This document shows positions 9,072 to 58,200 of a stretch of DNA of 64,000 nt, piece by piece. How positions within the stretch are numbered: the stretch's first letter is position 1; each line of letters begins with the position of its first letter. Under the pieces are notes generated by a model that was given only the letters and a program-made list of their open reading frames with translations, ran no database searches and was not told the DNA's origin. A program made the translations under genes and the position numbers. The stretch is from a virus: positions 1-64,000 of IMG/VR virus record IMGVR_UViG_3300008259_000017. One strand, written 5' to 3'.

Positions 9072-10142
9072 TTATATTGATTTTATTAAATCTTTATACA
9101 TCTTCTGAACAGCTGGATTTTTAATTGAAAATTTCCAAAGGACTTCTTTTGCAGCATGTAATGATTTTTGAGACATATGATCATTTGTTTCAATTGCTTG
9201 TTTTAATTTTTCTTTTCCAATGTTGACATTAAACTTTGGATAAAAATAACCAGCTTCTTTGCAAAACTCACTATTATGAACAATTGGATAATTTAAATAT
9301 AAAGATTCCAAAGTTACATAATTTAGATCATTATAAAAATGGTTAGAAACTATTACTCCAAATTTCTTTTGATCAAGTAATTTTATTAAAGAATATCTTA
9401 ATTCTGGTTTTAATTTTTTTGCTTTAAATAAATCTGTATTTTCAATCATTTTTTTAAAATTCAAATCTGTTTCTAAATGTTTTGATCCATATAAATACAT
9501 TGTCTCTATTAAAGAGTTATCCTCTCTTTCTAAAGCTTCTGCTATGTAAAGAGGGGTAATATAATTCTTTGAAATACTTATGTTTGGCTCAAGGCAAGCC
9601 ACATTCTTTTTGTTTGTTATATTGGAAAATTTTTCATTTATTTTATATTCTGGTTTTATACTTCCATCAATAAACCAAGGCTCCCAAATATAAGGAAGTA
9701 TTTTTACTTTTGCCTTGCTTGTAGCCTCGACAAATGATTTATAAAATTCATAATGTGGAGATATCCATGTTTCAACACCTTCTCTATGTATTCCAACTCC
9801 AGAGTCTGGATTGTGTAGCATTCCCTCTATTAAATAGAATAAAGAATTTCCATAATTTATAGATACAACTTTTATATTTTTTTCTATACATATATTTACT
9901 ATGCTTGTTTCTATCATGTATGCTGCTTCAAGGATTAAGAAATATTTATCTACAGAATCAGCAGTTAGTTTTTCTTGCTTCATATCCATAAAATATGTAT
10001 TATCTTCTTCTGCTCTTGTTAATGCAACAACATCATAGCCCATATTTTTTAATAGTTTAATTAAAAAATAACAATTTTGATTTAATCCATTTGACCATAT
10101 TTTGCTAGAGTCATTTGTTGTTATTCCAATTTTTTTTATCAT
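9072..10142 (-). CDS. DUF2827-type putative glycosyltransferase (copy 1)
   Basis: 356 aa. The whole layout matches DUF2827, a GT-B-like glycosyltransferase family: SNGLNQNCYFL near the N-terminus (residues 17-27), PYIWEPWFI (about 149), EPNISISKNYITPLYIAEA (about 183), and near the C-terminus YLNYPIVHNSEFCKEAGYFY (about 280-298). In GT-B enzymes the region around the EPNIS and HNS motifs forms the nucleotide-sugar domain; I infer sugar transfer from an activated donor in the cytoplasm. Acceptor unknown: virion protein, DNA or host surface polymer are all possible. It is the second gene of a two-gene - strand operon; its ATG overlaps the upstream gene's TGA (ATGA). A bidirectional terminator follows. 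It is a paralogue of its neighbour, with low overall identity by eye but the same motif order. Confidence 0.8.
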   Translation of the reverse strand: MIKKIGITTNDSSKIWSNGLNQNCYFLIKLLKNMGYDVVALTRAEEDNTYFMDMKQEKLTADSVDKYFLILEAAYMIETSIVNICIEKNIKVVSINYGNSLFYLIEGMLHNPDSGVGIHREGVETWISPHYEFYKSFVEATSKAKVKILPYIWEPWFIDGSIKPEYKINEKFSNITNKKNVACLEPNISISKNYITPLYIAEALEREDNSLIETMYLYGSKHLETDLNFKKMIENTDLFKAKKLKPELRYSLIKLLDQKKFGVIVSNHFYNDLNYVTLESLYLNYPIVHNSEFCKEAGYFYPKFNVNIGKEKLKQAIETNDHMSQKSLHAAKEVLWKFSIKNPAVQKMYKDLIKSI

Positions 10143-11206
10143 TTTATTAATTCCTTAATTAAATTTTCAATTCTTTCTTGATTACTTTTATTGTCAGTAG
10201 AATGGCTCTCAATTTTATTTAAATATTTATTTTTATGATCATTGTAATCAAAATTTAATATAGCTTTTTTTAATTGTTTTGCACCTTCAATTGCGTCAAA
10301 GTCATTATAAAAATAACCAACATCTTTAAAAGACATGCTATTATGAACTAATGGTCTTTTGTAGAATAACAACTCTAAATAATAATAATTATTTTCATTA
10401 CATACTTGATGAGCAATAAAAGTGTTTAAAACATCATTTGAAAGAATAACATGTAAAGGTATTCTTTTGTGTGCAAATACTTTTTTATTTTTCACTATAT
10501 CAAGCTTATCATAAAAACTTTTAAACATTTTATTCTCTAGTTTTTTATCTATAGATCCAATGTAAACTCTTTCTACAAGCTCTGGATTGGTATAGTTTAA
10601 GCCTTCCGCTATTCCAATTGGAACAATTGAAGTCTTGTAAAAGTTATAATTAGAATCAATTGTTCCAATTTTCTTTAACTGCTCTTTTGATTTTAAGTCA
10701 CAATTTTTATAAAAATCTTTATCATTTTTTATTAGAAAATCTGGATCCCATAAAAAAGGAATTGTATCTACATCAGTTCTGGTCATCGTAGATATTAAGC
10801 TTGAAAATTCCTCATGAGCTTCTTGTATCCAAATATTACAAGAATTTGAAAAATTTGATTTTGATAAAGAAGTATTTAATTCTTTATTATTTACAGCCTC
10901 AAATTGATTCATCATCATATTGTGATGAATATTTAAAACTATTTTTTTTCCTTTTGATGATATCTGATTGAAAATTTCATCTTGATTTATCTTGCTGCAG
11001 TTTATAAAAAAATCATAATTTTTTATTTTTGAAAAGTTTAAGTTTTTGGTCTCTTCTTCAAAAAATTCAATTTTTCTATAAAAAGAGACTATATCAACAT
11101 CATGCTTTAATTTTTTCAATATTTTGTTTAAAAAGTAAGCATTTTGATCTGCGCCATCAACCCATGGCTGAGTTATGTTATCGCATATTATTCCTATTTT
11201 TGACAT
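10139..11206 (-). CDS. DUF2827-type putative glycosyltransferase (copy 2)
   Basis: 355 aa, nearly the same length as copy 1 and with collinear motifs: WVDGADQNAYFLNKIL (residues about 15-30), PFLWDPDFL (about 149), a degenerate TIDSNYNFYKTSIVPIGIAE in place of EPNIS, then FIAHQVCNENNYYYLELL and RPLVHNSMSFKDVGYFYNDFD (about 280-300). The loss of the Glu-Pro of the EPNIS motif may change donor specificity or activity. The start at 11206 has GAGG upstream on the - strand (TGAGGTTTTAAAATG). It is the first gene of the - strand pair, facing away from the 11.27 kb structural genes across a short palindromic spacer. AT-rich codons. The likely role is modification of a phage or host component. Confidence 0.75.
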   Translation of the reverse strand: MSKIGIICDNITQPWVDGADQNAYFLNKILKKLKHDVDIVSFYRKIEFFEEETKNLNFSKIKNYDFFINCSKINQDEIFNQISSKGKKIVLNIHHNMMMNQFEAVNNKELNTSLSKSNFSNSCNIWIQEAHEEFSSLISTMTRTDVDTIPFLWDPDFLIKNDKDFYKNCDLKSKEQLKKIGTIDSNYNFYKTSIVPIGIAEGLNYTNPELVERVYIGSIDKKLENKMFKSFYDKLDIVKNKKVFAHKRIPLHVILSNDVLNTFIAHQVCNENNYYYLELLFYKRPLVHNSMSFKDVGYFYNDFDAIEGAKQLKKAILNFDYNDHKNKYLNKIESHSTDNKSNQERIENLIKELIK

Positions 11207-16641: not shown

Positions 16642-19600
16642 ATGGGAAAATCTAAATATCCAGAAAAATATGATACATCTATTGAAATACCTGTAATAAG
16701 AGGAAATATAAATGAATTAAGTGTTGATTACATTAATTCATTAAGATCTGCTTTGCTGCAAATTCAGCATACACTTGGTATTATGCCACAGGGTGCTGCA
16801 ATTGGTACTGTTGCAGATAGGCTTTCTAAATCATTAGACTCATCTGGATCTATAAAAAAAGAAGCATTAGATTCTGCTGGTGTTATTTATGGTCCAATAA
16901 CAAATGATAACATTTCCAAAGTTGCAGCAATTGATGAAGCAAAATTAAAACTAGATTTTCCAACCAAGATTCTTCAAACCGAATATTCATTATTGAATTC
17001 AAAGCTAAACGAGGTAATAACGGATTTAGAAGAGGTTATTTCTAAACTTGGATCACACGTATATGTTGACGCTGTAAATAGACATTCTGGAAAATCAATA
17101 AAAATATCTGAGATTTTAGTAACTCCATCTGATTTAGCAATTGCAGAGTTAGCAGTAACAAATGCGCAAGATGCAATTGAGGCTATTTTTTCAAAGCACA
17201 TAAATTATTCTGGTGCAAATATCTCAAGCGAAAATAATTCGCATTTGTCAAAACAAATATTTTTTGATAATACATCTGTTGCTGATGATATTCTAGGATC
17301 AGATTTACAAACAGTTGTAGAAGAGTTAGTTCCAATTTCAAGAAATTCACAGATTAAGCATCAAAATATATTCCATTCAAATGGGTATTTAAGATCTGGA
17401 CTTATATCATTAGCTAAAACCTCTACGAGTATAGCATCTGATATATCAGTTGTATTTTTTAAATCTAATATTAGTGATACAAATAGAAAAACAAAAATTA
17501 CACTAACCTCTCCACAAGAAGTTTTTGATATAAAAGAATATAATTATATTTCATTAAACTTGTCAAGTGGAACATTTTATTATATAATATCTGATATAGA
17601 ATTTGACTCAAGTAACTTGGTTCAGTCAATTTATATATATGGAAGTATTGACGAAGATTCAACTGGATCAAGTGTAATTTCCATATTTAAAAGTGAAAAT
17701 GCACCTACATCAGCGTGGGGCTTGGCCACCACAATAGTAGAATCACCGTCTTTATTATCAGCAAATATTCTAAAGATAGCAGATCCAAATTCACCAGGAG
17801 CCGTTTCTATTGGGTTTAAAACTAATGCTATAACCTCAGCAAATAGATATATTGGTTTAGAAGTATCTGGTAAGCTTTATCAAATAAATTGTTATAATAA
17901 TTTAAAAGACTATCAAACTATTGACTCTGTAATATCAACAATGAATGAATCTCTAACTGAATCTGGAGCCCCAGCTTTGGCATACAAAGTTCCTGGAGTA
18001 GAAACAGATCAATTAGAAATTGCAATAGTTTTAAATATAAAAGAAAAAGATTCATATTTAAAGTTATATAGAATAGATGATGCAATAGATTTAATTGGAT
18101 TTTCAAAATATGAAGATATTGAAATTTATCCAACAACAGGAAATCTTCATGTTATAAATGGTGTCCCTTATGAGGGATCTCTTGAGTTAATGAATTTAAC
18201 TGGATTGCAGCTTGATGCTAGTGCATCAATTTCTGGCGCAAACTTTTTAAATTATAATTTAAAAATAAATGACATACTAAATATAGTTGGAACAGATAGC
18301 GATGATGGAAGCTATATTATAGTAAATATAACTAGCACAAGGCTATATGTGAATTCAGCTCAATTATCAGGCGGCACATGGGCCGGAATATCATCTGCAA
18401 CGTCAAAGTTTATTGTATATAATGATGTGCAGTCATTTGATAATTATAACTTTATAAAGACATCTGGATCTCCAGCAGGATTATTATTTGAGTTAATTTT
18501 AAATGAAAATAATAAATTACACTACAGAACAATAGCAGAATATCAATCTCCTATTTGGTTTGGAACATCATTATTTTCAATAATAGAATGTGAGCAAGAA
18601 GCAGAGGTTGTAGAGAAGACTATAAATTTTGAAATAATAAATTCTGATTTATATTGCTACATAGAATCTTCTAATAAAATAAAAATTACAAATTATAAAA
18701 ATTATCCATTATCTTTATCAAATAACGAATATGATTCATTGCTAAAGCTATATATTTACAATGGAAGTCAAATAATTGGATATATGACATCTCTTGGTGT
18801 AACAAGTCTTTCTATACTTACAACTATTTATGAAAAGAAAAGTTATGAAAATATATTGTCATTGGCAACCGCATCATTTTATTCAACAAATGGAAGGATG
18901 GAGGGCGGTCCAGAAAGAACTCCATATATAAAGAGTGCACTAGATGTTGGATCGATATCTACAGATCAAATATCTCAAAAGGTAAGAAAAGAATTACAAG
19001 AAAGTATTTTTAAAGATACAAGATCAAACGGTATGACTAGGGGTCTTGAATTACTTTCAGTAGACGCAGACATTGTAACTGGTAGTTATATAGTTTCTAT
19101 ATCATCAGGTGTTGCGTATGTAAACGGAAGAAGATTTAAAATAGATTCAATAACTAATTGGTCTACAAATATAGCTCATGCAGACTTTGATAAAATTATT
19201 TTGGCTGTAAATAGCGATGGTCTGATTATAGCAGATGCTGCAAACTCAGCAGACTGTGTATTTTATATAAACCAGGAAGAATATGCTATAATTGGAACCG
19301 CAGAATATAACGGATCTAATATATCTATAATTGATCAAAGATTATTTATAAGTGAGCTAGATCTAAAACTGGTAAATTCTGTTACAGTAAGTCCTCAATA
19401 TGGTCTTGGTCATTTTACAAATATAAATAAAGCACTAAAGTATGCAAAAAGATTTTCTCAGATATTTCCAGATGCTGGCACACCAGAGGTACTATTAAAG
19501 GCAGGATTGCATAAGCTGGTAGTTGACACAGGAGTAGACTATGGACTCTCAACAAACCAAACCTTGATAGACTCAGCAGATAATTATGGCATTTTGATAG

Positions 19601-21054
19601 ATTTTCCTGTAAAAATAATAGGAGAAGGTGATTCTTCTATTGTAGATATAATGACTATTTATAATGATTATCCAGAAAGTGGCGATGATAGATCTACAGA
19701 TGCAATAAATAAAGGTTATATTGTAATTATAGGTAGCGGTGCTTCCACTTATCATTCTCCATTTTCAACAGATAAATTAAATCTTGATTCTGTTGTATTA
19801 AAAGATTTTAAAATAAAAAATTCAACTATATTGTATTTAGATCCAAAACTTTCAGTTGCTGGAGATTCAACTGAGAATTATCAATATCTAAAAATAGAAA
19901 ATATATACTTTGACTGGTCAAATATAGAATATGTAGCCACGTTTTTAACGTCGTATTACTTTACAAATGCAAATGCATTTTTGCTAGGATTATATGATGT
20001 AGCATCTGGATATGTCGGAGGATTTTCAATAAAAGATTGCACGTTTGATAATTGTTTTATTGACCTATCAACCTCCGGAGTTTCATACAAGAATATTACA
20101 GTCTCTGGAAATCAATTTTTCTCCAGAGGACAGTATAGCAATCCTTTGTATCCATCAATATTGATTAAGACTGAGTCGGGATCACTTTTAAATGATGGAC
20201 CTGTTATATTTAATAATAGTGGAAAAATCTTAGGAATAGGAAACTGTATTTTTTATTCTGCAGATGGAACAGAAATATTAAACAACTCAAGTGCATTGTT
20301 ATGGAATGGAAATTTACTATTAGGAGATAGCTCAATATCTTTAGATGGAACTTTATCAGTAACAGATTCTATTCAGGCAAGTAGCTCTGGTTTCGTAGTA
20401 ACAGCTCCTGCAACATTTAACGGAGCTGCCACCTTTTCAAGCGCAATAACGGCTGATGGTATATCAACATTTAACGGCGAAACAATATTTAATGCAGAAG
20501 CAACATTTGATGCTGATGCAATATTTAATTCTGCAGTTGATATAGCAGGCGTTTTAACTGTTACTGGAAACTTATCAGTATCTGGAGCTCTATGCTATAT
20601 AGATACGCTTCTTGCTGTAACACAAAATGCATCATTTCAGCAAGATGCTTTTGTAGTTGGAGATTTGACTGTAACTGGCGCATTATCAGTATCTGGATCA
20701 AAGTCTTTTAAGATAAATCATCCTGATCCTAAAAAAGAAGATATGTATTTAGTTCACTCGGTAGTTGAAACAAATACTGCCGGTGACAACATGTATAGAT
20801 GGTCGCTTGATTTAGAGCAAGGAGATAATTTTATAAAACTTGAAGATTATCATCCTTATTTAAATGGAAATGAAATGATTTGGGTTTCACCAGCTGCAAG
20901 CTTTGGCGTTGGTTATGGAACTATAGATAAAGATAAAAATGAATTAATAATAACTGTTAATAATAAAGGTAAATATAATATATTATTAATGTGCACAAGA
21001 ATAGACCCTGATGCAAAACTATGGAAGGGTGTAGAGATATTAAAAAAGGAATAA
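16642..21054 (+). CDS. Tail fibre/spike protein with beta-helix and tip domain (1470 aa, paralogue A)
   Basis: Residues 1-150 form an anchor almost shared with the next gene (VIYGPITNDNISKVAAIDEA; LDFPTKILQTEYSL). Residues 150-900 are beta-rich modules collinear with those of the next protein. Around 916-1200 (GLGHFTNINKALKYAKRF, VLLKAGLHKL) the pattern is that of a pectin-lyase-like right-handed beta-helix. Residues 1253-1350 are shaft-like repeats (FNGAATFSSA, FNGETIFNAE, LTVTGALSVSG). The C-terminus carries KSFKINHPDPKKEDMYLVHS, like the KSFxIxHP...LxHxxVE domain at the ends of many tail proteins. GAGGAAATA precedes ATG 16642. Role: receptor binding or polysaccharide contact; no catalytic residues can be assigned. 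Confidence 0.75.
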   Translation: MGKSKYPEKYDTSIEIPVIRGNINELSVDYINSLRSALLQIQHTLGIMPQGAAIGTVADRLSKSLDSSGSIKKEALDSAGVIYGPITNDNISKVAAIDEAKLKLDFPTKILQTEYSLLNSKLNEVITDLEEVISKLGSHVYVDAVNRHSGKSIKISEILVTPSDLAIAELAVTNAQDAIEAIFSKHINYSGANISSENNSHLSKQIFFDNTSVADDILGSDLQTVVEELVPISRNSQIKHQNIFHSNGYLRSGLISLAKTSTSIASDISVVFFKSNISDTNRKTKITLTSPQEVFDIKEYNYISLNLSSGTFYYIISDIEFDSSNLVQSIYIYGSIDEDSTGSSVISIFKSENAPTSAWGLATTIVESPSLLSANILKIADPNSPGAVSIGFKTNAITSANRYIGLEVSGKLYQINCYNNLKDYQTIDSVISTMNESLTESGAPALAYKVPGVETDQLEIAIVLNIKEKDSYLKLYRIDDAIDLIGFSKYEDIEIYPTTGNLHVINGVPYEGSLELMNLTGLQLDASASISGANFLNYNLKINDILNIVGTDSDDGSYIIVNITSTRLYVNSAQLSGGTWAGISSATSKFIVYNDVQSFDNYNFIKTSGSPAGLLFELILNENNKLHYRTIAEYQSPIWFGTSLFSIIECEQEAEVVEKTINFEIINSDLYCYIESSNKIKITNYKNYPLSLSNNEYDSLLKLYIYNGSQIIGYMTSLGVTSLSILTTIYEKKSYENILSLATASFYSTNGRMEGGPERTPYIKSALDVGSISTDQISQKVRKELQESIFKDTRSNGMTRGLELLSVDADIVTGSYIVSISSGVAYVNGRRFKIDSITNWSTNIAHADFDKIILAVNSDGLIIADAANSADCVFYINQEEYAIIGTAEYNGSNISIIDQRLFISELDLKLVNSVTVSPQYGLGHFTNINKALKYAKRFSQIFPDAGTPEVLLKAGLHKLVVDTGVDYGLSTNQTLIDSADNYGILIDFPVKIIGEGDSSIVDIMTIYNDYPESGDDRSTDAINKGYIVIIGSGASTYHSPFSTDKLNLDSVVLKDFKIKNSTILYLDPKLSVAGDSTENYQYLKIENIYFDWSNIEYVATFLTSYYFTNANAFLLGLYDVASGYVGGFSIKDCTFDNCFIDLSTSGVSYKNITVSGNQFFSRGQYSNPLYPSILIKTESGSLLNDGPVIFNNSGKILGIGNCIFYSADGTEILNNSSALLWNGNLLLGDSSISLDGTLSVTDSIQASSSGFVVTAPATFNGAATFSSAITADGISTFNGETIFNAEATFDADAIFNSAVDIAGVLTVTGNLSVSGALCYIDTLLAVTQNASFQQDAFVVGDLTVTGALSVSGSKSFKINHPDPKKEDMYLVHSVVETNTAGDNMYRWSLDLEQGDNFIKLEDYHPYLNGNEMIWVSPAASFGVGYGTIDKDKNELIITVNNKGKYNILLMCTRIDPDAKLWKGVEILKKE

Positions 21055-21057
21055 CAA

Positions 21058-24000
21058 ATGTCAAAATCATTATTTCCAGGTAAGATAGACTCATCAAAAG
21101 AGTTGCCAATAGTTAGAAACAATGTAACTGAAATAAATGCAGAAGTAATAAATTCCTTAAGGGATGCAATTATTCAGATTGAAAAAACCCTTGGAATAAA
21201 CCCACAGGGTAGCTCAACTGTATCAGAAAGAATATCTGGGATAATGGACTCCTATGGATCTTTGAAAAAAGATGCATTAGATGAGGCGGGAGTTATTTAT
21301 GGACCAATAACAAATGATAATATATCCAAAGTTGCAGCAATTGATGAGGCAAAACTTAAGTTAGACTTTCCTACAAAAGTTCTTCAAACAGAATATTCAT
21401 TGGTAAAAAAAGAGCTTGACAGCTTTATTGCTACATTAACAGAAGTTTCCGCAAAGTTATCATCACATTTAAATGCAAACTCTTCCTCTAGGCATAATTC
21501 AAGAAATATATATGTTTTGGCAAATACTGCAGCTGAAAGTGAGGTTGCACTACAGTCATTTATAGGCGGCTCTTTGGAAGAGTTTATAAATGACTTTTTT
21601 AATTCACATGTTAATTTCCTAGGAAATACATCTCAGGATAATAGATCTCATAATGCTTCACAAATATATTATGATAACTCAAAGACATCATCAGCAATTA
21701 CGTCTGTAGATGTTCAGGGAGCAATTGATGATTTAGCAAGCAAAGAATCTATTCTTCTTAAGACAAATCTTTTTGCAACAAATTCAAATGGAATTCCAAG
21801 GCACTTTAAGGCAATAGATATTTTAAATAATTTAAATGGAAAGTTAATATTAAATAGCTCAGTAGTCACTTACTCTGCAAATAATACATCATTACAAGTT
21901 TTAACTTTTTCAACTCCACAAGCTTTATTATATGATATAGAAAAATTTGACATAGCAGTATTGTCAAATTCTTTTGACATAAATGATGATAAAGAATATC
22001 TAATTTTAGATTACTCACTAGATGGTAGCGGAAATCTTCAATCAATAACTATTTTGGGTGGAACAAAAAATGATTCAATCGAAACATCTTCTGTAGAAAT
22101 AGTTAAAAATCCATATCAATATACAAACATAAATGCTTACAACACAACTGTAAGACCAAGATATAACAGGACAAATACTCCCGACGTAATTGTGGCTCAT
22201 CCAAATTCTGCTACAATTATATCTAGTGGAATCTGCCCAGAGAAAATAAACTCTGCTGTAAAATTTTTAAATTTGGAAATAGATGGGGCCACTTATTCAA
22301 TTGATATGTATGATGTTCTAAACCCATATCAAACTATTGATACTATAGTATGGTCATTAAATACATATTTTTCTGATAACAGAGTTCCAGCATTTGCTTA
22401 TAAACAAAGAGTTTCCAGCTGTTATGAGATTGCAATATCTCATTTGATCCCAACATGGACTGACTCAAGTTTAAATAGGTATATTAAGGTAAAAGAAAGC
22501 AACACAAATGATGCATCCGCTGTATTAGGTTTTTCAAATTTTATAGATAAGGAAATATACGGAAGCTATGGAAATTCCATTTTAATAAATGGAATAACAA
22601 TTTCTGATCCAGGATTTATTTCCTCTTATACTTCTTCAGATGTTGAGCTTGTAGTTGGAACAAATAATGTTTTATTTAATACAGCAAATCCACTACAACT
22701 TGGAATTAAAATTGGAAACTTATGCCATATAGATAACGTTGGAACATATAGAGTAATAGGTGTTTATAGCGGCTATATAGTGCTAGATGATCAAGATTAT
22801 TTATTTACTGCAAATATTGCAGCTGGTGAAAAGTTATTTATATATAGCGGAACAGTTTCACTGGAGGCATTGGAATTCTCAGAGATAGTGGGCCCAGATG
22901 GATCTATATTATTAGATATATTTATGACAGAGCAGTCAAAACTAGGTTATAGCATAAGGGCAACTATAGAGGGGTCACTTCAGGATTCAGCATTTTATGG
23001 TGCAATAACAGATATTTCGAGAAATTATTCAATAGGCCTATCGGATGTTATTACAATATCAACTGCAGGCATTGCAACTGTAGACAATGGACTTGAAACA
23101 TCATCTGGTGACAAGATATATAACTCTGGAGAATATGCTGTAAGATCTCCGGATGGAGCTTCCTTCTATAAGATAAATGTAACTGGAGGCTTCCCCACAG
23201 TTAATACCTCAGTTACTGTAACTGGAGTTTCAGAGGTGGCATATGGAAACTTTCAACTATCAAGGGTGCTTTATTCGACTTCTCTAGGATTTATTTTAGG
23301 AGACTCAAATATTGGAATACCATCTGTATTAGATAAAAGAGCCACTGGAACAACAAACGAGATAATAATTTCTCCTTCATTAATAGAGAAGTATATAGAA
23401 GGTCCAAGATCAGAATTAAGAGGGGATGGAGTTGTAAGTGGAATGGAGGTAACTCTAGCAGACGTTACTCCAACAGAATGCACAATAAGTATATCAGCAG
23501 GGTTTGTTTATATATCAGGAATAAGATACAAGTTTGATGGAATAGAGGAATTGCCATTTACACATGATGGTCTAAATTTTTATATTGTAGTTGACAAGAA
23601 TGGATGTCTAAGAGTTTCGCAGGAAATACAAGAGCCATCAAGTTCTAATTATGTATCGCCATTTTTTGGACTAAGAGTTGCTTATGTTCTATATGCTGAA
23701 TATGTATTATCAAGTTTTACACTTGTAGATCTGCGAAAGAGCATTGCAGCTATAGATAAAAAAATAAATGAAATAATTGTTGCAGAGGAAGAGTCAGCAG
23801 GGCATTTTACATCTATAAAAAAAGCAGTAGATTATGCAAGGGTTTATAAAAAACTCTATGAAGTAAGTGCAAGACCTTCTATTTTAATAAAAAATGGAAC
23901 ATATATAGTAGATGAACCAATATGGCTGGACTTTGATATATCTATATCTGGAAGCGGTCCAGAAACAATAATAACTAAATCTTCTGATATGTTAGATGTT

Positions 24001-24645
24001 TCAAATACATTTTTATCTGTTTTCTCAGAAGATGATTACCAGCATGCAGCATTTATAATTGGCTCTCCTACAGCAGACTATTATCAATCAGAAGATATTG
24101 TTTATGGAATAACTATATCCAATCTGACATGTTTAACACCTAGTGACATTTCTTCTTTAACTAATAGTTATTTTAACTTTTTCTTTTTAATTTTGCAATA
24201 TAAAAATTATAGCGAATTTGCTTCTTATAAGTTTAATAATATAAACTTTATAGGAAACTCATCAATGATGGGAAGCGACAATAATGATCCTGCAACATTA
24301 AATGGCGAAAGGCAAGATCTTTCAATTGTATTTGCTAATGCACATGGACAGCCATACCCTCCAACATACGGAGCTTTGTTTGTAAGTAATTGTTTCTTTA
24401 GCTATTCTGGAACCGAATGGGCAGCTCTTGGTTGCTTATTTACCTATGCAGGCATTTATGCTATAAGGGACGTAATTATAACTTCAAATATTTTTAAAAA
24501 ATGCTCACCAAATATAGAAAATGTAGCATCAGGAGATTATGAAATTTTTGGAATCTCTGATAACTATACGCTAACAAATCCCTCTGTTTCGATCCCATTC
24601 TTGGAATCTGAAATTATTGTTGCTAACAATGCTACAGCTGATTAA
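21058..24645 (+). CDS. Tail fibre/spike protein with beta-helix (1195 aa, paralogue B)
   Basis: Same architecture as the preceding protein up to the beta-helix: anchor (residues 1-140, VIYGPITNDNISKVAAIDEA, LDFPTKVLQTEYSL), beta modules with conserved landmarks (SNGIPRH, ILGFSNFIDKEIYGS-like, GDGVVSGMEV), and the pectin-lyase-like region from about 907 (AGHFTSIKKAVDYARVYKKL; ILIKNGTYIVDEPIW). It ends right after the beta-helix (ATAD) and lacks the shaft and KSF..HP tip of paralogue A. So a duplication was followed by loss or gain of the distal tip. Ribosome site AAGGA overlaps the end of the upstream gene, three bases between genes. Both probably attach to the same baseplate site, as two alternative or heteromeric spikes. 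Confidence 0.75.
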   Translation: MSKSLFPGKIDSSKELPIVRNNVTEINAEVINSLRDAIIQIEKTLGINPQGSSTVSERISGIMDSYGSLKKDALDEAGVIYGPITNDNISKVAAIDEAKLKLDFPTKVLQTEYSLVKKELDSFIATLTEVSAKLSSHLNANSSSRHNSRNIYVLANTAAESEVALQSFIGGSLEEFINDFFNSHVNFLGNTSQDNRSHNASQIYYDNSKTSSAITSVDVQGAIDDLASKESILLKTNLFATNSNGIPRHFKAIDILNNLNGKLILNSSVVTYSANNTSLQVLTFSTPQALLYDIEKFDIAVLSNSFDINDDKEYLILDYSLDGSGNLQSITILGGTKNDSIETSSVEIVKNPYQYTNINAYNTTVRPRYNRTNTPDVIVAHPNSATIISSGICPEKINSAVKFLNLEIDGATYSIDMYDVLNPYQTIDTIVWSLNTYFSDNRVPAFAYKQRVSSCYEIAISHLIPTWTDSSLNRYIKVKESNTNDASAVLGFSNFIDKEIYGSYGNSILINGITISDPGFISSYTSSDVELVVGTNNVLFNTANPLQLGIKIGNLCHIDNVGTYRVIGVYSGYIVLDDQDYLFTANIAAGEKLFIYSGTVSLEALEFSEIVGPDGSILLDIFMTEQSKLGYSIRATIEGSLQDSAFYGAITDISRNYSIGLSDVITISTAGIATVDNGLETSSGDKIYNSGEYAVRSPDGASFYKINVTGGFPTVNTSVTVTGVSEVAYGNFQLSRVLYSTSLGFILGDSNIGIPSVLDKRATGTTNEIIISPSLIEKYIEGPRSELRGDGVVSGMEVTLADVTPTECTISISAGFVYISGIRYKFDGIEELPFTHDGLNFYIVVDKNGCLRVSQEIQEPSSSNYVSPFFGLRVAYVLYAEYVLSSFTLVDLRKSIAAIDKKINEIIVAEEESAGHFTSIKKAVDYARVYKKLYEVSARPSILIKNGTYIVDEPIWLDFDISISGSGPETIITKSSDMLDVSNTFLSVFSEDDYQHAAFIIGSPTADYYQSEDIVYGITISNLTCLTPSDISSLTNSYFNFFFLILQYKNYSEFASYKFNNINFIGNSSMMGSDNNDPATLNGERQDLSIVFANAHGQPYPPTYGALFVSNCFFSYSGTEWAALGCLFTYAGIYAIRDVIITSNIFKKCSPNIENVASGDYEIFGISDNYTLTNPSVSIPFLESEIIVANNATAD

Positions 24646-26303: not shown

Positions 26304-26366
26304 CTATGTTTTTAATTACAACTACTAATAATAATAAAATTATTGTAAAGCATATCGGAGGATTTG

Positions 26367-29300
26367 ATGGCTAATATTCCAGGTATTTCAGGATACATTC
26401 AACCTGGCGCATTCGCAAGGGATAGAGTAATTTCTAAGGCAGCTAGTATTCCTGGCGGCCTAAGAGTTGCTGCTATCATGGGCGAAGGAATGAGAGAAGA
26501 GGTTATAGTAGAATCCGCTGTAGGTGGCGGAGAAGACGGAGTTGCATCATGCTCTCCAAGTGGAAGCGGAGAAAGTAGATACTTTAAGTTATCAAGATTT
26601 CCAGTAGTCTCTGGTAGAACAGAGCTGTATCTAAATGGTACAAAGCTATTTGGAAAGGAAGAAGTTGTTGATGAATCAGTTTTATCATCTGAATATGATT
26701 ACAGACTGGACATAGAAACAGGCTGTATTGAACTTCAGAAGGCAACAATAAAAGATCAAAATGGAAAAGTATATTCAGCAAGCGGAACAAATGTTGGAAA
26801 CGGAATAATTCCAGATTCACAGTCAGATGCATGTCAGACTGTAGATATAGTTGATTCATCAGCACCAACAGAAAGGTGGACTCTAAAGTGTGTCTCAGTT
26901 GTAAGAGACTCATCTGGATCACCAATTCCAGGAAGAGCTACTTTTTCAGTAACCGGTTCTTCATCAGGACAGGTATATGACGATGCAGGAAGTCCAATAT
27001 TTTTCCATAGCACTTACTTTACATCATCAAGTGGAGCAGTATCTGGAAATGCAGATCCATCAGTAGACGGCTATGTTGTAGCATCTTCAGATGGATATGG
27101 ACTAGCATCTCCAATAGCAGATGGTGGAGCAACACCAACAACTACAAATACAGTAACAATTCCAGCCGATTTAGTATCAGATGGTCAGGCCCTTGTAGGC
27201 GATTATCTAGTTCTAGATGATGGTACATATGGACAAATTTCATCAATATCATATGACTCTGGATCATCAGAAACCACGATAGTTGTATCAACAGACTCTC
27301 TAGGCAGCGTTGGCGATACAGTAGACTGGAAGATTAGAGCTGTAAACGCATTTGTAGATCAAACAATGGGCGGAAGCTTTACAGGTCTAGACCTAGGAAA
27401 GATCTTAGTTGTATGTCCAGCGGGAAATTTTGCAGGTGGTAAATTTTTAATTACAAAGGTAACTTCCAATACAACAGTGAGAGTAGAAAAGTATGGAGAG
27501 CCTGGAGTAGTTTATCCTTCGCAGGAAGCTACCGACACTGCTGTAGGTTTGGCTTACGAAGACTTAACTTTCTACATGGTAGAGACAAACGGTATAATTC
27601 AGGCAGGAATACAAGAGGGTGCTATTTCTTTCGAAGTTGGTGATAGACTATTTATTGATGTTTCATCTAGAGCAATGGGCCCAGGCGATAGACTAGTTGC
27701 AAACTATATATATGAAGCAGATTTGAATGATCCAGAGTTATTTACAGATGCAGAATCATTATTTGCAAAGCATGGTTTTCCATCAGTAGAAAACACTTTA
27801 TCATTGGGAGCACAGATTGCATTTGAAAATGGTGCACCAGCAATTCTAGCTGTTCAGTGCAAGCCTTCAATTCCAAGAAGAACTTCTGCAACTCTATTAT
27901 CACAGATAAGCGCAGCCGGCGTTGGAGGCTTTACAGGCTGTCTATCATCAGGTGGTGTAGCAGATGATTCGCTATGTGGATTGGAAGACTTAAGATTTAT
28001 TATTCCAACTCCTACAACTGGTCTTCTAAAAGGAAGACCAGCACAGGATACAAGAGTAAATATATTTATAAAGAGAAGCGGAGTAGAGACTCAAATATTC
28101 CCAAATAAGGTCGATTTCTATAATAGTCAACTAGAGACTGATGCTCAGCAGCTAGCGTTTATTTCAGGTGATGAGAATCCATACTCATACACAATAGTAA
28201 ATAGTGATACAAATACTTTATTTACTGGAGAGGACGGAGTTCTCACAACTGGAATAGCCGGAACAACATTCTCAAGCTTGTTTATCAATCTTGATAGAGA
28301 TCATGTTGGATCAACAATAGTAATCGAATCTATGGAAGATGCATTAACTGGAACTGTTTACACTAGCGTAGCTGATATTTCAGAGCAGCTATACGGTGTA
28401 GGCTTAGGAGTAACCGAAACAGCAGAGGTTGTAATAGATAGTATAACATCTGATACAAAAGCAGTTGTAATTGGTGCAGAATCAAATACACTAACTGTTT
28501 CTGATAAGTTTGTAAATATTCAATTCTTTATAAAAGGAGAGAATACATCAAATGTTAGTGCATCATTACTACTTCACAAAGATCTAGTAAAGAGCGGAAC
28601 CTTAAAGAAGGGAGACGGAATTAGGATCACCTATATTGATGAGAATGATTCAAACTTCTATGATACAAATTGGTTTACAGCATTTGAGAAGCTAGAGGCT
28701 GTAGATGCTCAAATTATAGTTCCACTTCCTTCAAGCACAATTTCTGCTATATTCCAGTCAGCAGTAACACACTGCGAGACAATGTCATCTATTGCAAACA
28801 GAAAAGAAAGAGTTGCAATTATAGGCGCTCAATCAGGCCTGTCAACTGATGCAATCTTAGGTCTAAAAGATGTTGCAGTAGAAGATATTGGAATTATAGA
28901 AGGAATTCAGGGAGATGATCCTCTAGAGCTTCTTTCTGGAGATGTAGAGGACTTGGCAGATTACAAACTAAGTAACTCATATGATAGCAGCAGAGCAGTA
29001 TATCTATATCCAGATTCAATCGTAAGAAATGTATCAGGTACAAATGTACAGTTGCACGGATTCTATATGGCAACAGCAGTAGCCGGATTACTATCAGCAA
29101 ACCAGAATGTTTCAATTCCAATAACAAACAAGAGCCTAACCGGATTCTCTCTAACAAGAGATAAAGTATATAGGCCAGTAATACTAGACAAGCTAGGTGG
29201 AGAAGGAGCAACAGTCGTTCAGCCAATTCCAGGTGGCGGAAGAATTCTAGCAGGAAGAACCACAAGTCAGTCAGGTATTGTAGAGGAAGAGGAGATCTCA

Positions 29301-29576
29301 ATAGTCTTTATTAGAGATAGAGTAAAGCAGGTACTAAGAAATTCACTAAAATCATTTATTGGTGGAGTTCAGGGTCCAGATACTCTAAGTCTAATGTCAG
29401 CAAAAGTAAAGACAATTATGACAGGTCTTTCATCACAGGGTCTAATAACATCATTTTCTAATATCAGAGTTGCAAGAGATAAGGTCGATCCAAGACAGCT
29501 AAATGTATTCTTACAGTTCGTACCAGCATACCCAATCAACTTCGTATTTATTGACATTGAAATCGGAATAGCATAA
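26367..29576 (+). CDS. Contractile tail sheath protein (1069 aa, enlarged)
   Basis: N-terminal residues 1-50 (GISGYIQPGAFARD, GGLRVAAIMGEG) and the C-terminal third are typical of phage sheath proteins: FAKHGFPSVENTLSLGAQIA at about 460, and after about 935 KLGGEGATVVQPIPGGGRIL, VKQVLRNSLKSFIGG, and a final beta strand FVFIDIEIGIA. Sheath proteins usually have 400-700 residues; here about 50-450 and 500-800 hold extra Gly/Ser-rich beta domains, probably exposed on the tail surface. Start ATG 26367 is chosen because GGAGGA (26357-26362) is correctly spaced; the in-frame TTG 26364 is too near. Codons partly show the CTA/CAG bias of abundant proteins. It forms the outer contractile layer around the tube. 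Confidence 0.93.
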   Translation: MANIPGISGYIQPGAFARDRVISKAASIPGGLRVAAIMGEGMREEVIVESAVGGGEDGVASCSPSGSGESRYFKLSRFPVVSGRTELYLNGTKLFGKEEVVDESVLSSEYDYRLDIETGCIELQKATIKDQNGKVYSASGTNVGNGIIPDSQSDACQTVDIVDSSAPTERWTLKCVSVVRDSSGSPIPGRATFSVTGSSSGQVYDDAGSPIFFHSTYFTSSSGAVSGNADPSVDGYVVASSDGYGLASPIADGGATPTTTNTVTIPADLVSDGQALVGDYLVLDDGTYGQISSISYDSGSSETTIVVSTDSLGSVGDTVDWKIRAVNAFVDQTMGGSFTGLDLGKILVVCPAGNFAGGKFLITKVTSNTTVRVEKYGEPGVVYPSQEATDTAVGLAYEDLTFYMVETNGIIQAGIQEGAISFEVGDRLFIDVSSRAMGPGDRLVANYIYEADLNDPELFTDAESLFAKHGFPSVENTLSLGAQIAFENGAPAILAVQCKPSIPRRTSATLLSQISAAGVGGFTGCLSSGGVADDSLCGLEDLRFIIPTPTTGLLKGRPAQDTRVNIFIKRSGVETQIFPNKVDFYNSQLETDAQQLAFISGDENPYSYTIVNSDTNTLFTGEDGVLTTGIAGTTFSSLFINLDRDHVGSTIVIESMEDALTGTVYTSVADISEQLYGVGLGVTETAEVVIDSITSDTKAVVIGAESNTLTVSDKFVNIQFFIKGENTSNVSASLLLHKDLVKSGTLKKGDGIRITYIDENDSNFYDTNWFTAFEKLEAVDAQIIVPLPSSTISAIFQSAVTHCETMSSIANRKERVAIIGAQSGLSTDAILGLKDVAVEDIGIIEGIQGDDPLELLSGDVEDLADYKLSNSYDSSRAVYLYPDSIVRNVSGTNVQLHGFYMATAVAGLLSANQNVSIPITNKSLTGFSLTRDKVYRPVILDKLGGEGATVVQPIPGGGRILAGRTTSQSGIVEEEEISIVFIRDRVKQVLRNSLKSFIGGVQGPDTLSLMSAKVKTIMTGLSSQGLITSFSNIRVARDKVDPRQLNVFLQFVPAYPINFVFIDIEIGIA

Positions 29577-29586
29577 GGAGTAAAAA

Positions 29587-30225
29587 ATGGCATCTTATCC
29601 ATATACAGGAACTTTGTTTGACTCAGAAGCAGTCACTGGTGCAAAAACAAGAACTGGTTTAAGTACTCAGGTTGTTGTTTATGTAAATAATCAGCCAGTA
29701 GGCGCAATTCAAAACTTTCAGGAAAGTCAGGGAAGACCTACACAGAGAATAAAGGAAGTAGGAACAGATGGGACAATAGAAATTGTACCTACCGGTGTTG
29801 CAACAGTAGACCTCACAGTAAATCGAATCTACTTCGATGGTCTGTCACTTCCAGAGTCTATGGCAAGAGGATTCAGAAATATCCATGCTCAAAGAATTCC
29901 TTTTGATATAGTTGTAATTGATAGATTTACTGGAACAGAAGATGAGGGTGGAGCAATAGTAACAACCTATCATAACTGCTGGTTTAAATCACTCGGAAAA
30001 TCATATTCTGCAGATAACTATTTGATAACAGAAAATTGTAATATAGAAGTAGAGTCTATAAGCACTGAAAGAAATGGAGCACCAGTTGCTTCAAGTCAAG
30101 GAGTTGGAGGCGGAAGAGACTTAGGATCTGAAGGTAGACAGATTGATGCAGTTGAGCAGGCTGCTGATTATGGAACCTACAGAGGAAGCTTGGACTTCCC
30201 AGGCCTAATAAAAGCAGCATTCTAA
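29587..30225 (+). CDS. Tail tube protein (212 aa)
   Basis: Follows the sheath by 10 bases with an AAGGAG ribosome site, the classic sheath-tube order. The sequence has tube-like features: VGAIQNFQESQGRPTQRIKE and VGTDGTIEIVPTGVATVDLT (strand-turn-strand with a charged N-terminal loop), HAQRIPFDIVVID, CWFKSLGKSYSADNYLITEN. Size is slightly above T4-type tube proteins (160-210). The C-terminus is disordered and Gly-rich (GVGGGRDLGSEGRQ). Hexamers stack into the inner tube. A strong terminator follows. Confidence 0.85.
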   Translation: MASYPYTGTLFDSEAVTGAKTRTGLSTQVVVYVNNQPVGAIQNFQESQGRPTQRIKEVGTDGTIEIVPTGVATVDLTVNRIYFDGLSLPESMARGFRNIHAQRIPFDIVVIDRFTGTEDEGGAIVTTYHNCWFKSLGKSYSADNYLITENCNIEVESISTERNGAPVASSQGVGGGRDLGSEGRQIDAVEQAADYGTYRGSLDFPGLIKAAF

Positions 30226-30300: not shown

Positions 30301-30738
30301 ATGTCAAAAGTAGAAGCAACAATGGTAAAACCTCAGCCAAAAGAGGCAGTGATAAAAAAACAAGAATTTAAGTCTCTAAAAGATCTAATTTTTTTAGGCA
30401 GAATTGAAAAGAAGATTAATATTTCAGGCTATGAAATAGGGTTAAGAAGTTTAACTATTCAAGACAATAAATATATTATAGAGAAAATATTATTATCAGA
30501 TAATGCATCTAAATTTGTTGATGCAAAAATACTATCAATTGTAACCCACATAAATACAATAAATGAGGTTCCAGTAGAAAACTTGTGTGAAGATGATTCC
30601 ATTGTAAATATAATGGATAGAAAGCTAAATGTTGTATCAAATTTTCAGCTTTCTCTTGTTGAGAAGCTATATGAGATTTGTAATAAAATTGATGAAGAGT
30701 CTGGAAGAGAAGTTGAAATAGAAGAAATAAAAAAATAA
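30301..30738 (+). CDS. Tail assembly chaperone, short (G-type) product (145 aa)
   Basis: Located between tube and tape measure, the standard place of tail assembly chaperones. Lys-rich start (MVKPQPKEAVIKKQEFKSL), a small beta section (INISGYEIGLRSLTI), then helices (EKLYEICNKIDEESG). It ends EEIKK followed by TAA. The last two Lys codons form the slippery A-AAA-AAA at 30729-30735. The product binds the tape measure in known systems and prevents premature polymerisation of the tube; that role is inherited from the family position, not visible here. The normal, non-shifted product is expected to be the more abundant one. Confidence 0.75.
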   Translation: MSKVEATMVKPQPKEAVIKKQEFKSLKDLIFLGRIEKKINISGYEIGLRSLTIQDNKYIIEKILLSDNASKFVDAKILSIVTHINTINEVPVENLCEDDSIVNIMDRKLNVVSNFQLSLVEKLYEICNKIDEESGREVEIEEIKK

Positions 30739-31163
30739 CAGAGGGTCCGGAATCAGATATTATCTGGACCCTCTCAAAGATGTGGAACTGTCCAATAGAT
30801 GACGATAAGCTGAAGAATATTAACAAAAATCAACTTATATGGTATTCTATTATGATTAATAATGATAAAAAAGAAAAAGCAGAATCCATGTTTGCAGTTG
30901 CAGAATATTTGGCATCATTTATAAACCCAAGCGCAGTCTCAAAAATAAAAGAAGCAAGAAAGGAAGCTGAGAGTAAAAACTTTGCATCTGATAATGAATT
31001 TAAGTCTATGCTTGATAATAAGGAATTCTTAAAAGACCTAGCAAACAGAGCTCCAAAAGAAGAACAAAAAAATAATCTTATTAATAAAAGAAAGTCTATT
31101 AGAGAAACAAAATTGCCAAAAAATCTTGGCAATATAATGAAGATTAATAGAGATAATTTTTAA
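30301..31163 (+). CDS. Tail assembly chaperone, frameshifted (GT-type) fusion (about 287 aa)
   Basis: Predicted product when ribosomes slip back one base at 30729-30735: 145 residues of the first frame, then 142 residues read from 30735 (starting ITEGPESDIIWTLSKMW). The frames overlap at 30717-30738, precisely where the heptamer sits. This is the G/GT arrangement known for lambda and, as E/E+E', for P2-like phages. The fused T part is helical and Lys/Ala-rich, fitting tape-measure binding. The relative amount of fusion cannot be read from sequence. Confidence 0.8.
30729..30774 (+). promoter_or_regulatory. Programmed -1 ribosomal frameshift signal
   Basis: Slippery heptamer A-AAA-AAA (30729-30735) in the correct phase, with the zero-frame stop TAA immediately after. 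Four bases downstream, AGAGGGTCC (30740-30748) pairs perfectly with GGACCCTCT (30766-30774), a 9-bp GC-containing stem enclosing an inner AGAT/ATCT helix. The -1 frame is open from 30717 to 31163, so slipping joins the two chaperone frames without interruption. Absence of a T run argues against a terminator. Confidence 0.85.
30780..31163 (+). CDS. T-frame of the tail assembly chaperone (probably expressed only by frameshift)
   Basis: The first ATG in this frame is at 30780, giving 127 aa (MWNCPIDDDKLKN ... KINRDNF). No ribosome site precedes it (the upstream bases are the 3' arm of the frameshift hairpin), so independent initiation is doubtful. The sequence is mostly helical (KEKAESMFAVAEYLASF, KIKEARKEAESKNF) and basic at its end (INKRKSIRETKLPKN). 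It is followed 18 bases later by the tape measure gene. If translated separately it would be a minor product. Confidence 0.7.
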   Translation: MWNCPIDDDKLKNINKNQLIWYSIMINNDKKEKAESMFAVAEYLASFINPSAVSKIKEARKEAESKNFASDNEFKSMLDNKEFLKDLANRAPKEEQKNNLINKRKSIRETKLPKNLGNIMKINRDNF

Positions 31164-31181: not shown

Positions 31182-33008
31182 ATGTCAGTAGACAGCGGAA
31201 TAAGCCAACTTGGAGACACAGCTAAACAGACTGGAGAGAATATCAATGAGCTTACAAAGTATATTGATAGTTTTTCTAATGTAAATAATGCTTTATATAG
31301 ATCTCTTGGAAGTAGCACTACAGCCATGAAGTCTTTTAGCGAAACTGTAACAGGCCTTACAAACATTGCAACCGGTCCATTGAAGATTTTTGGAAGTTTA
31401 GCTGGTAAGGTTGGTGAAGATGGAATCGCTGCAGCGCTTGGCTCGACAACAAGGCTTTTAGAAGATTTCTCAAAACTTATTGGTGAAGATGTTGTTAAGT
31501 CTGGCGCAGCAGCGCTAGGAATACTTGATAGTCAATCAGAAGGGTTTAGGAAATTAGACAAAGAATACCTGGCTTATACAAAATCATTTGGTATGGGTCT
31601 TGATAGAGCTAAAGAGCTTTCATCCTCACTTTCTTCAGAGAGAATAAGTGAATTTGGAAAAGCATTTAATATGACTGCAGAAGAAGTATCTGCATTTAAT
31701 GCTTCGCTATTAAGGACTAATATAGGTTTGGAAACTTCTTTTTCAAATATTGAAGTTGGCGGAACGAGCATGAAGTTTTACTCAGCTGCAATGGCGGCTG
31801 CACAAGCTTCTGGTTTGGATGCCACAGCGGCAATAAGAAACTTAAATGACATGATATCTAAGCAAGGAATGTCCTCAAAAGCAGCGCTTGAGGCTCTTGC
31901 CGGATATTCAGAAATTTCAAAAGAAACTGGATTAAATACTGATAGCGTTTCAAACGCATTATTACAGTCAATTTCTGGCTTTCAAAAGATGGGAACAACC
32001 ATTGACTTTGGAAAGCCTATATTGAAAGGTTTTGCAGAGTCCTTTAAGGAAGTAGGCCTTGGTATTGAGGGTGCATCTGATGCAGCTCAATCATTTACTC
32101 AAAGTTTAGCAAGAATGTCTACTGACTATGCAATGTCATATATCTTAAATCAAAAAGGTGGAATGGGTGGACAGCCAGGTGGTACGATACTAAGCTCGTC
32201 AATAGAAACTAGAGCTAAGATGCTTGAAGCTGGTGACGATACCGGCAAGCAAGCAGATATTGCAGTTGATATGGCAAAAAGTCTAAAAGAATCCATAGAA
32301 TCATTTACTGGATCTGGCTTAATTACATTAAAAGAAGCAGCAAAAGATCAATCACTTCAGCAAACATTTTATCTCCAAGAGCAAATGATCTCTAAGTTTA
32401 CCGGAACAAGTGATGTTGCTTCTTTGGATAGAATAATGGAAATGCTTCCAAAGATTGCAAGAATGGAAAAGTCTGGAGACCAAGAGGGTGCTCAACAGCT
32501 TTCAAAGTCATTGCAGGATATAATATCTCAAAGAGATTACACAATGGGTGAGGGCGAGAAGTTTGGAGTTGGGTTGCAAAATCAAGTAGCAGAACAGATG
32601 AATAGAACAAGAGAGGTTGCAGAATCTGCCACAAATCTTGCAAAAGAAGTAACGAATCTGATCTCTATAAAGGAAGATACCTTTGAATTATTAGCAAAAG
32701 GTTATTTAGCACTCAATGATGAGGCATACAAACCTCTGACTGAAAAGATCAGAAACGGTGATCTTGATAAGTCACAATTTTTTGAGGCCTTTAAGGAGTT
32801 TTTTAATGATGCTAATGCCGCTAAAGAAGCGGTAAAAGATGAAGTTAATGAAATATCAACCTCATTTGACGGCTTTTTAGATAAATTTTCACAAATGTTA
32901 GAAAGTAAATTTCCAGGAGGAAAACTAATTGTTGATCTAAGTCAGGAAGCAAAGGAGCTTCTATCTGTTGGATCTTCGAGTACCAGACCTATTTCTGGAC
33001 CAAAATAA
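31182..33008 (+). CDS. Tape measure protein (608 aa)
   Basis: Directly after the chaperone frames and before the baseplate hub genes. Almost entirely helical, rich in Ser, Ala, Glu, Lys, with repeated Gly-Ser turns (LGSSTTAMKSFSETVTGL, KIFGSLAGKVGEDGIAAALG), Gln-rich helices and a Pro-ended tail (SSSTRPISGPK). GGAGAGGTAC precedes ATG 31182. At about 0.15 nm per residue a fully helical 608-residue ruler gives a tail near 90 nm, short relative to the very large baseplate proteins encoded downstream. No peptidase motif and no clear transmembrane segment were seen. Confidence 0.83.
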   Translation: MSVDSGISQLGDTAKQTGENINELTKYIDSFSNVNNALYRSLGSSTTAMKSFSETVTGLTNIATGPLKIFGSLAGKVGEDGIAAALGSTTRLLEDFSKLIGEDVVKSGAAALGILDSQSEGFRKLDKEYLAYTKSFGMGLDRAKELSSSLSSERISEFGKAFNMTAEEVSAFNASLLRTNIGLETSFSNIEVGGTSMKFYSAAMAAAQASGLDATAAIRNLNDMISKQGMSSKAALEALAGYSEISKETGLNTDSVSNALLQSISGFQKMGTTIDFGKPILKGFAESFKEVGLGIEGASDAAQSFTQSLARMSTDYAMSYILNQKGGMGGQPGGTILSSSIETRAKMLEAGDDTGKQADIAVDMAKSLKESIESFTGSGLITLKEAAKDQSLQQTFYLQEQMISKFTGTSDVASLDRIMEMLPKIARMEKSGDQEGAQQLSKSLQDIISQRDYTMGEGEKFGVGLQNQVAEQMNRTREVAESATNLAKEVTNLISIKEDTFELLAKGYLALNDEAYKPLTEKIRNGDLDKSQFFEAFKEFFNDANAAKEAVKDEVNEISTSFDGFLDKFSQMLESKFPGGKLIVDLSQEAKELLSVGSSSTRPISGPK

Positions 33009-55224: not shown

Positions 55225-58200
55225 ATGGCTCTAAGACCGGTTAGCTTACAGATAAATTCATCTACAACAGTAGAAATATCATTTAATAAAAATTTAAATA
55301 CCTTAATAAGTGTAGATAATTTTGAAATATCTTCCGCGTCTGGCGTAGAAGACGATATATCAGTTGTAAGTATTTTTATAACGGAAAAGACAGTAATACT
55401 AACTACAAGGCCGCAAAATCAAGATAATTTATATATAATAACTTTAAAAGATGGTCTGCAAAAATTTTCAGCAGAAGATGGCGACAGACTAGTAAATGAC
55501 GATATAAGCAGAGTTCTATATTTTGTTGGAGCTGATAGTTTTAATCCAGTAAGAGATAGGATGCTGTCAAATGTTCCAAAGACTTATTCTTTGGAGGGAA
55601 CTGTAGTAAAAAACGTAGTATCAAATACTGCAGAAGAATTATATACGCTTCAAAAGAATATTGGAGAGGTTTTATCTGATAACTATATATCTGCCAGATC
55701 TGAAAACGAAGTAAGAATAAGAAACTCTGGCGCTAAAGATAGATTGGCAAACGAAAATGCTTATATGGTTGAATATGTATCAAGATATAGAAGTGGTGAG
55801 AATTTATTATTTGGCGAACTATTACTAAACAGCTCTGCTATTGCCCCATCTCAAACAGTAGTATCTAATTATCCAATATCACTTCAGCAGGTTTTAAATA
55901 CAGAGGAGTTTGTATTTTCAAATTTAGACTCAAATATATCTGGATATTTAATTACATTATCAAAAAATAATATATTAAAACTAGAAAGTATAACAATAAA
56001 AAAAGCATCTACAGAAGAATGCGAAGACTCTGATTATACATATAATATAGAAAGTTTTAAATATTCTATTAAGGATAACAGATATGATCCTTATAGATCT
56101 TATTCTTTTAGTGAGCTAGGGTCTAATCAAATATTGCTATCTGAATCATCTGGCTTTGCAATGCCATCAGCTGGCGATACAGTAATTATATCATATCTAT
56201 ACAAAGATTTATCAAGAAATGTATCTACAGATTCAATAGAAGTCTTTTCAATTGAGTCTACTCAATCAGAATTAATTCCACAAAACATATCAAGATTCTT
56301 TTTAAAAAATGCACCAATAACTGATCAATCTGGGGATATACTTTCTTTTGGAAATATAGCTTTTAATTCTTTATCACAATATATTGAAAATCCATTTCAA
56401 ATTGAAATTCAGTTTAGTACATCAAAACTTCCATCTAATTATGGTGAATATTCAGTAAATTACTCTACTGGAGAAGTAATAGTATTTGGAACTGTTTCCG
56501 CAACTGGTACTGGTTTTGGGCAATACTTAGCAAGCTATACTTACAGAAGGCAGTTCAAAGGAAATCTAGATTATTACTTATCAGGTTACGACTTTGCTGC
56601 AACATCCGGTAGAGATTTAGCAGGAGCAGAGGCTGTAATTAGGTTTACATATCAACAAATCTTTGTTGATGGTGTTGATTATAAATCAGAATGTCATATA
56701 GAAGTTTTAAATGAAGAAGTTACTAATAACGTTACATCTTCGTTTTCTTTAAAAACAAAGAATCATCCAATAACAAAAGTATTTAATATATCAAATCAAA
56801 CAACTGGCGAGGTATATAAGCTCCTTTATTTCTATAAAAATCAAATATTCTTTACAGGAATAAATCCTCCAAGGTTTGTATCAAGTAAGAACAAAATTCC
56901 AAGGTTTGATATTGCTCAGGACGAGAAGATCTCTCCTTACTTTAAATTTGTAAGTCCAATACATAAATTTAAAATAACAAATAACGATAGCATAAACAAT
57001 ATACAGATATATCCGCCAATCCAATCACACTTGGTAGATACCACTTCTTCGCAGTATGTTCTAAAGACTTCCTCTGGTGAGCTTCAAAATATGAATGTAA
57101 AATTCTTTGGCCCAGAAGATGGAAATGGAAATATAAATTATATAGCATTAACCACTTCTTCTGACTTGCCAGATGTAAATGCGGAATATTATATAGGATT
57201 AATATCATTATCAGTAAAGTTAAAAAACAAATATATTCTAAATAAGCTAGAGGATTCAATTGGATCGGTTGTAGATTCATCGCTGCATCTGGATAAAGAT
57301 ATTTTTATAACTGAAAAAGTATTCTCTACTGATATTGAATATTATTTAGCTATAAAGAATTTTTACTCAAGTGAAAATATATCAGCAACTTACAATTCTT
57401 CTACTGCTAGACTGCAGAATGTTGGAGATTACGTAGTAGATTATTCAACTGGAACAATACATGTTGCAGTTGGAAACGTATACGATATAGATATAGGAAG
57501 GGCAACTTATTCTTACTCAAAAATAGCTTTAAATGGTCTAAATATAGTAACATCTGATGGGATATCAAAAAAGAAAAATTACATAGATAATCCATCTGTT
57601 GTATTTGAGAAGACAAAAATAGATAATGGAATTATTATAGAGGATTTAAATAATTATCTAGAGATTGCAAGCGAAAACAAAATTATATTAGATGATGGAA
57701 CAGAAGAGTATACATGCGCTGTAACCTCTGACTATGGTATTTACACTAAATATAAGCCAACGCAAGTAAAGGGTGTTTGGACATTGCAAGATCTATTTGG
57801 AAGGTCATCATCAGTTGCAGCATCAAGAGTTACCTCTGGAACTTACGAAAACCTAATTCCATCGAAAGATTTGGGCGGTAGAAATTTAATAAATGGCTCA
57901 GCATCAGTTGAGGACTTCTTTATTGATCTAAAAACATATGTAAAGACAAAGGCAAGGTTTTACTCTGGATATACATTTGTTGTATATGACGAGCTATTTG
58001 GATCAGTATTTGATGTAGTAAACGCAACAACTGGCGCTAGCTTATTGGCTAGCGCAGCAATTAGCTATGTTGATGGATACTTAGAAATATTTATTCCAGA
58101 TGGATCTGGATTATTCTCTGGAAATGATGTAGTAATATCATATGTAAAAAGCTATATACCAGCGCCCGGAACCAGAGTCTCTGCAGCTTACTCTGCCGGA

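Follow-up and report, generated by a model that had tools for sequence, protein, structure and literature searches.

A predicted -1 programmed ribosomal frameshift between tail assembly chaperone frames in an uncultured, distant relative of phage G

Frameshifting in tail chaperone genes has long been known in general, with lambda among the examples, and is reviewed in PMC5009743. The tail frameshift is conserved in dsDNA phages (Levin 1993 and Xu 2004, cited in PMC5009743). The gene pair reported here would share with lambda gpG/gpGT a -1 slip late in a short chaperone gene just ahead of the tape measure gene. Lambda is a siphovirus, and its heptamer differs from that of the phage analysed here. 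In lambda both the frameshifting and the role of the products are known by experiment, whereas for our phage we infer the slippage, its efficiency and the chaperone role from the sequence.

The DNA analysed, referred to below as the window, is a stretch of 64,000 nt taken from a viral record of 72,878 bases, most of which it covers, and it belongs to an uncultured, distant relative of the giant phage G (Donellivirus gee). The gp181/gp182 of Bacillus phage G were described as frameshift tail assembly chaperones, and they were undetected in mass spectrometry of phage G (PMC8570332). The phage G record annotates them as a frameshift pair. Both halves of the window pair appear homologous to gp181/gp182, as suggested by weak side-by-side tblastn matches, by the alignment and by a fold match. 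In phage G the heptamer A_AAA_AAC is directly followed by TAG, whereas in the window phage A_AAA_AAA is followed by TAA. Unlike the window phage, phage G yielded no strong local hairpin, and its C-terminal chaperone part and tape measure protein are far longer.

Two further isolated phages have tail sheath proteins homologous to that of the window phage. For gp114/gp115 of Rhodococcus phage E3, the record annotates the fusion and notes possible ribosomal slippage. The E3 site lies in a GC-rich context and reads G_GGA_AAA CTG TAA, with the heptamer one codon before the stop, and the E3 pair is likened to the window pair by gene order. In Eggerthella phage LE2-3 (L135 5411-6147), A_AAA_AAA abuts the TAA between the tail assembly chaperone LE23_86 and LE23_87, which lies in the -1 frame. 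The LE2-3 record lists LE23_86 and LE23_87 as two separate genes with no fusion, and they probably represent an unannotated fusion.

All features of the window tail module lie on the plus strand. The tail sheath gene (26364..29576, 1070 aa) matched phrog_279 with an E-value of 2.4e-16, as well as phage G gp178 and Rhodococcus phage E3 gp111. The following gene (29587..30225, 212 aa) matched the phage G virion structural protein gp180 (E 2e-11) and phrog_985, and its position after the sheath gene points to a tail tube role. Directly after the chaperone pair lies a 608-aa gene (31182..33008) that is kept in relatives and is placed like phage G gp183 and E3 gp116. Since its product had no family match of its own in the profile searches, its position alone marks it as the probable tape measure gene. 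The preliminary description had located the pair at the place typical of G/GT-type chaperones, between tube and tape measure. The order of sheath, tube, chaperone pair and 31182-33008 agrees with that location, and the same order was found in relatives, in phage G and in E3. Tandem duplicate tail tube genes were seen between the sheath gene and the chaperone pair in L048-L053, in L001 (2518-3836) and in phage G (gp179 and gp180).

Several other features of the window were recorded. An 897-aa open reading frame at 5629-8322 consists mostly of tandemly repeated 87-bp units (5805-6681 and 7099-7894), and these repeats also yield long minus-strand open frames that are probably not genes. Two neighbouring minus-strand genes of the DUF2827 family lie at 9072-11206, in a low-GC stretch within the plus-strand structural region. 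The adjacent large frames at 16642-21054 and 21058-24645 encode 1470 and 1195 aa, respectively; their N-terminal parts look paralogous by eye, and they might encode fibres or adhesins. At 55225-63999 a frame stays open for 2925 aa or more and continues past the end of the window.

The zero frame of the chaperone pair (30301..30738) starts at ATG 30301, encodes a 145-aa putative gpG-like N-terminal product, and ends with the codons GAA GAA ATA AAA AAA TAA. The upstream protein matched phrog_2992 (E 8.5e-5) and phrog_2792 (E 8.7e-5), both of them PHROG profiles of tail assembly chaperones; among 31 family members, 6 and 9, respectively, matched these profiles as well. A search of solved structures by sequence returned chance hits only. 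The AlphaFold2 model of the upstream protein had a pLDDT of 78, and its top PDB fold match was the HK97 tail assembly chaperone 2ob9 (probability 0.99, E 0.04). Fold matches of the model in BFVD included the Rhodococcus phage Finch chaperone and phage G gp181/gp182, with E-values from 8.5e-8 to 2.4e-6 (6e-7 for gp181). The profile matches and the predicted fold place the upstream protein in a tail assembly chaperone family.

The last seven nucleotides before the zero-frame stop are the heptamer A_AAA_AAA (30729..30735), which sits in the X_XXY_YYZ phase that tandem -1 slippage needs and which is directly abutted by the stop codon TAA (30736..30738). Open at 30717-31163, the -1 frame shares 22 nt with the zero frame. 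Thus the overlap is restricted to 30717-30738 and holds an in-phase heptamer just ahead of the stop, both as initially described. Because in-phase A7 occurs 10 times in the 16,641 codon positions of the open reading frames of the window, however, A7 by itself is weak evidence. Inspection by eye of the region upstream of the heptamer gave a purine-rich stretch at 30703-30712 as the sole candidate for a Shine-Dalgarno stimulator, and it was set aside as seemingly too distant from the heptamer.

A stable structure lies 3' of the heptamer in this phage. In the minimum-energy fold (-20.8 kcal/mol), a 5' arm at 30740..30751 pairs with a 3' arm at 30763..30774 to form a 12-bp stem with one G-U pair and an 11-nt loop. 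The stem was more stable than dinucleotide shuffles (z -5.0) and than synonymous recodings of the -1 frame (z -4.4), and none of 300 recodings was equally stable. The spacer of 4 nt between the heptamer and the stem is short, a point against the frameshift reading; one of the two outermost stem pairs was found in this phage alone, and the nearest relatives have about 6 nt. A 9-bp stem (30740-30748 with 30766-30774) with an inner AGAT/ATCT helix had been proposed at this place. The pairing of these 9 bp is exact and begins four bases past the heptamer, but the minimum-energy stem extends to 12 bp. The letters of the inner helix are present as well, but this helix competes with stem pairs 10-12, and when the two forms were compared by folding energy it was about 5 kcal/mol less stable (-15.4 versus -20.2 kcal/mol). 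No Rfam match was found within the window.

After a slip at the heptamer, the codons read would be ATA ACA GAG GGT CCG GAA TCA GAT, giving the predicted junction ...EEIKK-ITEGPESD... The -1-frame part expected after the shift (30735-31163) comprises 142 aa, and the predicted fusion has a length of 287 aa. The downstream part, a putative gpT-like C-terminal extension from the frame at 30717..31163, is predicted to be helical. It aligned with the C-terminal region of gp182 from phage G, and the relatives have a homologous -1 frame. Profile searches of the library gave no known family for this part, and the fold search gave no solved fold.

The second frame might alternatively be a separate gene, translated from a start of its own such as ATG 30780, which is present in the -1 frame, or by reinitiation past the upstream stop; stop-proximal reinitiation is common in phages. 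ATG 30780 is not preceded by a Shine-Dalgarno core, however, and starting there would remove a conserved N-terminal core (W-x-L-C/S-K). Of 36 loci, 22 have a -1 frame devoid of ATG, GTG and TTG between its upstream stop and a point about 27 codons beyond the zero-frame stop, and the -1-frame starts of the remaining loci have no properly placed Shine-Dalgarno core. The claim that the downstream frame has no ribosome site was thus borne out. A separate gene would also leave the heptamers unexplained, and we regard it as very improbable. With no start preceded by a ribosome site in the -1 frame, frameshifting is the only straightforward route to the second part, which would be made solely as an extension of the upstream protein.

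Related sites were collected from IMG/VR in two ways. A search with the sheath protein gave 51 loci, and a profile built from a subset of the second parts gave 80 loci, many of them on contigs already found by the sheath search. A single profile from all second parts was dropped as too diverse for scanning. The chaperone proteins alone as queries found no close relatives in IMG/VR, and the subset profile had no matches in bacterial and archaeal genomes. After identical sites were dropped, the comparative set contained 69 distinct sites, including those of the window phage and phage G.

At all 69 sites the two frames stand in a -1 relation. Indels are frequent errors in A runs, and the pair could in principle be one gene that was split either artificially, during sequencing or assembly, or by a genuine frameshift mutation. 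The same -1 break recurs, however, in the same place throughout the 69 distinct sites, which come from many assemblies, and in the isolated phages G, E3 and LE2-3. Because the arrangement is conserved, the broken-gene explanation is already refuted, and we give it practically no weight.

A canonical in-phase X_XXY_YYZ heptamer was likewise present at all 69 sites, so that no relative was found that keeps both frames yet lacks a slippery heptamer. The heptamer ends directly at the upstream stop at 48 sites, as in the window phage, and 3 nt before it, with one intervening codon, at the other 21. Among the first 36 sites, about 1.1% of the codon positions in the upstream frame carried an in-phase heptamer of this kind, and synonymous recoding gave a mean heptamer chance of 0.27 per site; as the sites are related, the per-site chances were not merged into one probability. 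When 45-nt stretches were compared across the whole gene pair, the most stable one fell no more than 15 nt from the slippery site at 24 of 36 loci. A stop-adjacent in-phase heptamer, a 45-nt stretch at the same place that is more stable than any other in the two genes, and a slippery site at 69 of 69 related sites together indicate that the arrangement is not due to chance. The preliminary description had called this an unusually compact example. This was not upheld, since the layout is common to the group including phage G, and the compactness is a trait of the lineage that is not special to this phage.

The heptamer letters vary among the related sites as A_AAA_AAA, A_AAA_AAC, A_AAA_AAG or T_TTA_AAA. 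The proposed check of related phages for conservation of A7 and the hairpin thus gave a mixed result: a slippery heptamer is always found and a hairpin usually, but A7 is not conserved and a few relatives have no hairpin. A7 as a conserved sequence was rejected because T_TTA_AAA substitutes for it in many relatives. This variation also bears on a transcriptional shift, in which RNA polymerase would slip on the A run and produce mixed messages, some of them in the other frame. The window site is indeed a run of seven A, and seven A is close to the lower limit for polymerase slippage. The relatives, however, carry AAAAAAC, AAAAAAG and T_TTA_AAA, and most T_TTA_AAA sites have runs of identical bases of only three to four, on which polymerase should not slip, whereas the ribosomal heptamer pattern is retained, usually with an RNA hairpin. 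As these T_TTA_AAA relatives have no long single-base run, transcriptional slippage is unlikely, and we rate it slightly below even a separate start for the second frame.

The hairpins of most loci were more stable than synonymous recodings, and three stem geometries were distinguished among the relatives: that of the window phage, common to L004, L005, L024 and L033; the AAAAGCTCC type; and the GGAGCC/GGCTCC type. No strong local stem was found in phage G, L052, L101, L106 and L111, so the hairpin is common and placed as a stimulator should be but is not universal. When each of the three hairpin classes was analysed apart, few two-sided changes were seen and the covariation values fell within those of shuffles. 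As significance over shuffles was reached in none of the three classes, we do not claim covariation of the stem.

The most interesting addition from the comparison is the change of slippery-site register among relatives. All 16 sites at which the second Lys codon has been lost (AAA to GNN) have a T preceding TTA AAA, which makes T_TTA_AAA available one codon upstream. At three sites (L023, L061 and L096) both heptamers are present and overlap, as T_TTA_AAA_AAA followed by the stop. A tree of the sheath and tube proteins implies about three changes of the T_TTA_AAA register, of which one or more fall on well-supported branches. On balance, these observations favour the view that selection in this lineage preserves what the frameshift site does and not its letters. 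The heptamer would alternate between T_TTA_AAA and A_AAA_AAN, a move of one codon, with the three dual-heptamer sites as likely intermediates, and the stem would be re-formed at one place in three or more different pairings.

The gene order, the homology, the predicted fold, the heptamer, the hairpin and the comparative data all support the initial reading of a G/GT-type pair joined by -1 frameshifting, and we consider it very likely that a -1 programmed ribosomal frameshift yields two tail assembly chaperones from one start. In the proposed mechanism, the majority of ribosomes would translate 30301-30735 and terminate at TAA 30736-30738, releasing the 145-aa short protein. A minority would be paused by the hairpin (30740-30774) with the two AAA codons in the P and A sites, slip by -1 on A_AAA_AAA, bypass the TAA and continue to the stop at 31161-31163 to give the 287-aa fusion. 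By analogy with lambda gpG/gpGT, binding of the tape measure protein and recruitment of tube subunits may be the task of both proteins, whose ratio would matter. The frameshift itself is textbook, and this site is a clean but ordinary example of a known trick in tailed phages.

The analysis settles the annotation of the tail module for an uncultured lineage whose IMG/VR relatives lie on contigs of up to 395 kb. The second chaperone part matches no family in the libraries used and would usually be labelled a hypothetical protein. Two heptamer registers and several stem geometries occur among the 69 natural sites, which constitute a panel for dissecting the features of frameshift signals. If selection does keep the function of the site and not its letters, they would form a natural record of the turnover of a frameshift signal without loss of frameshifting.
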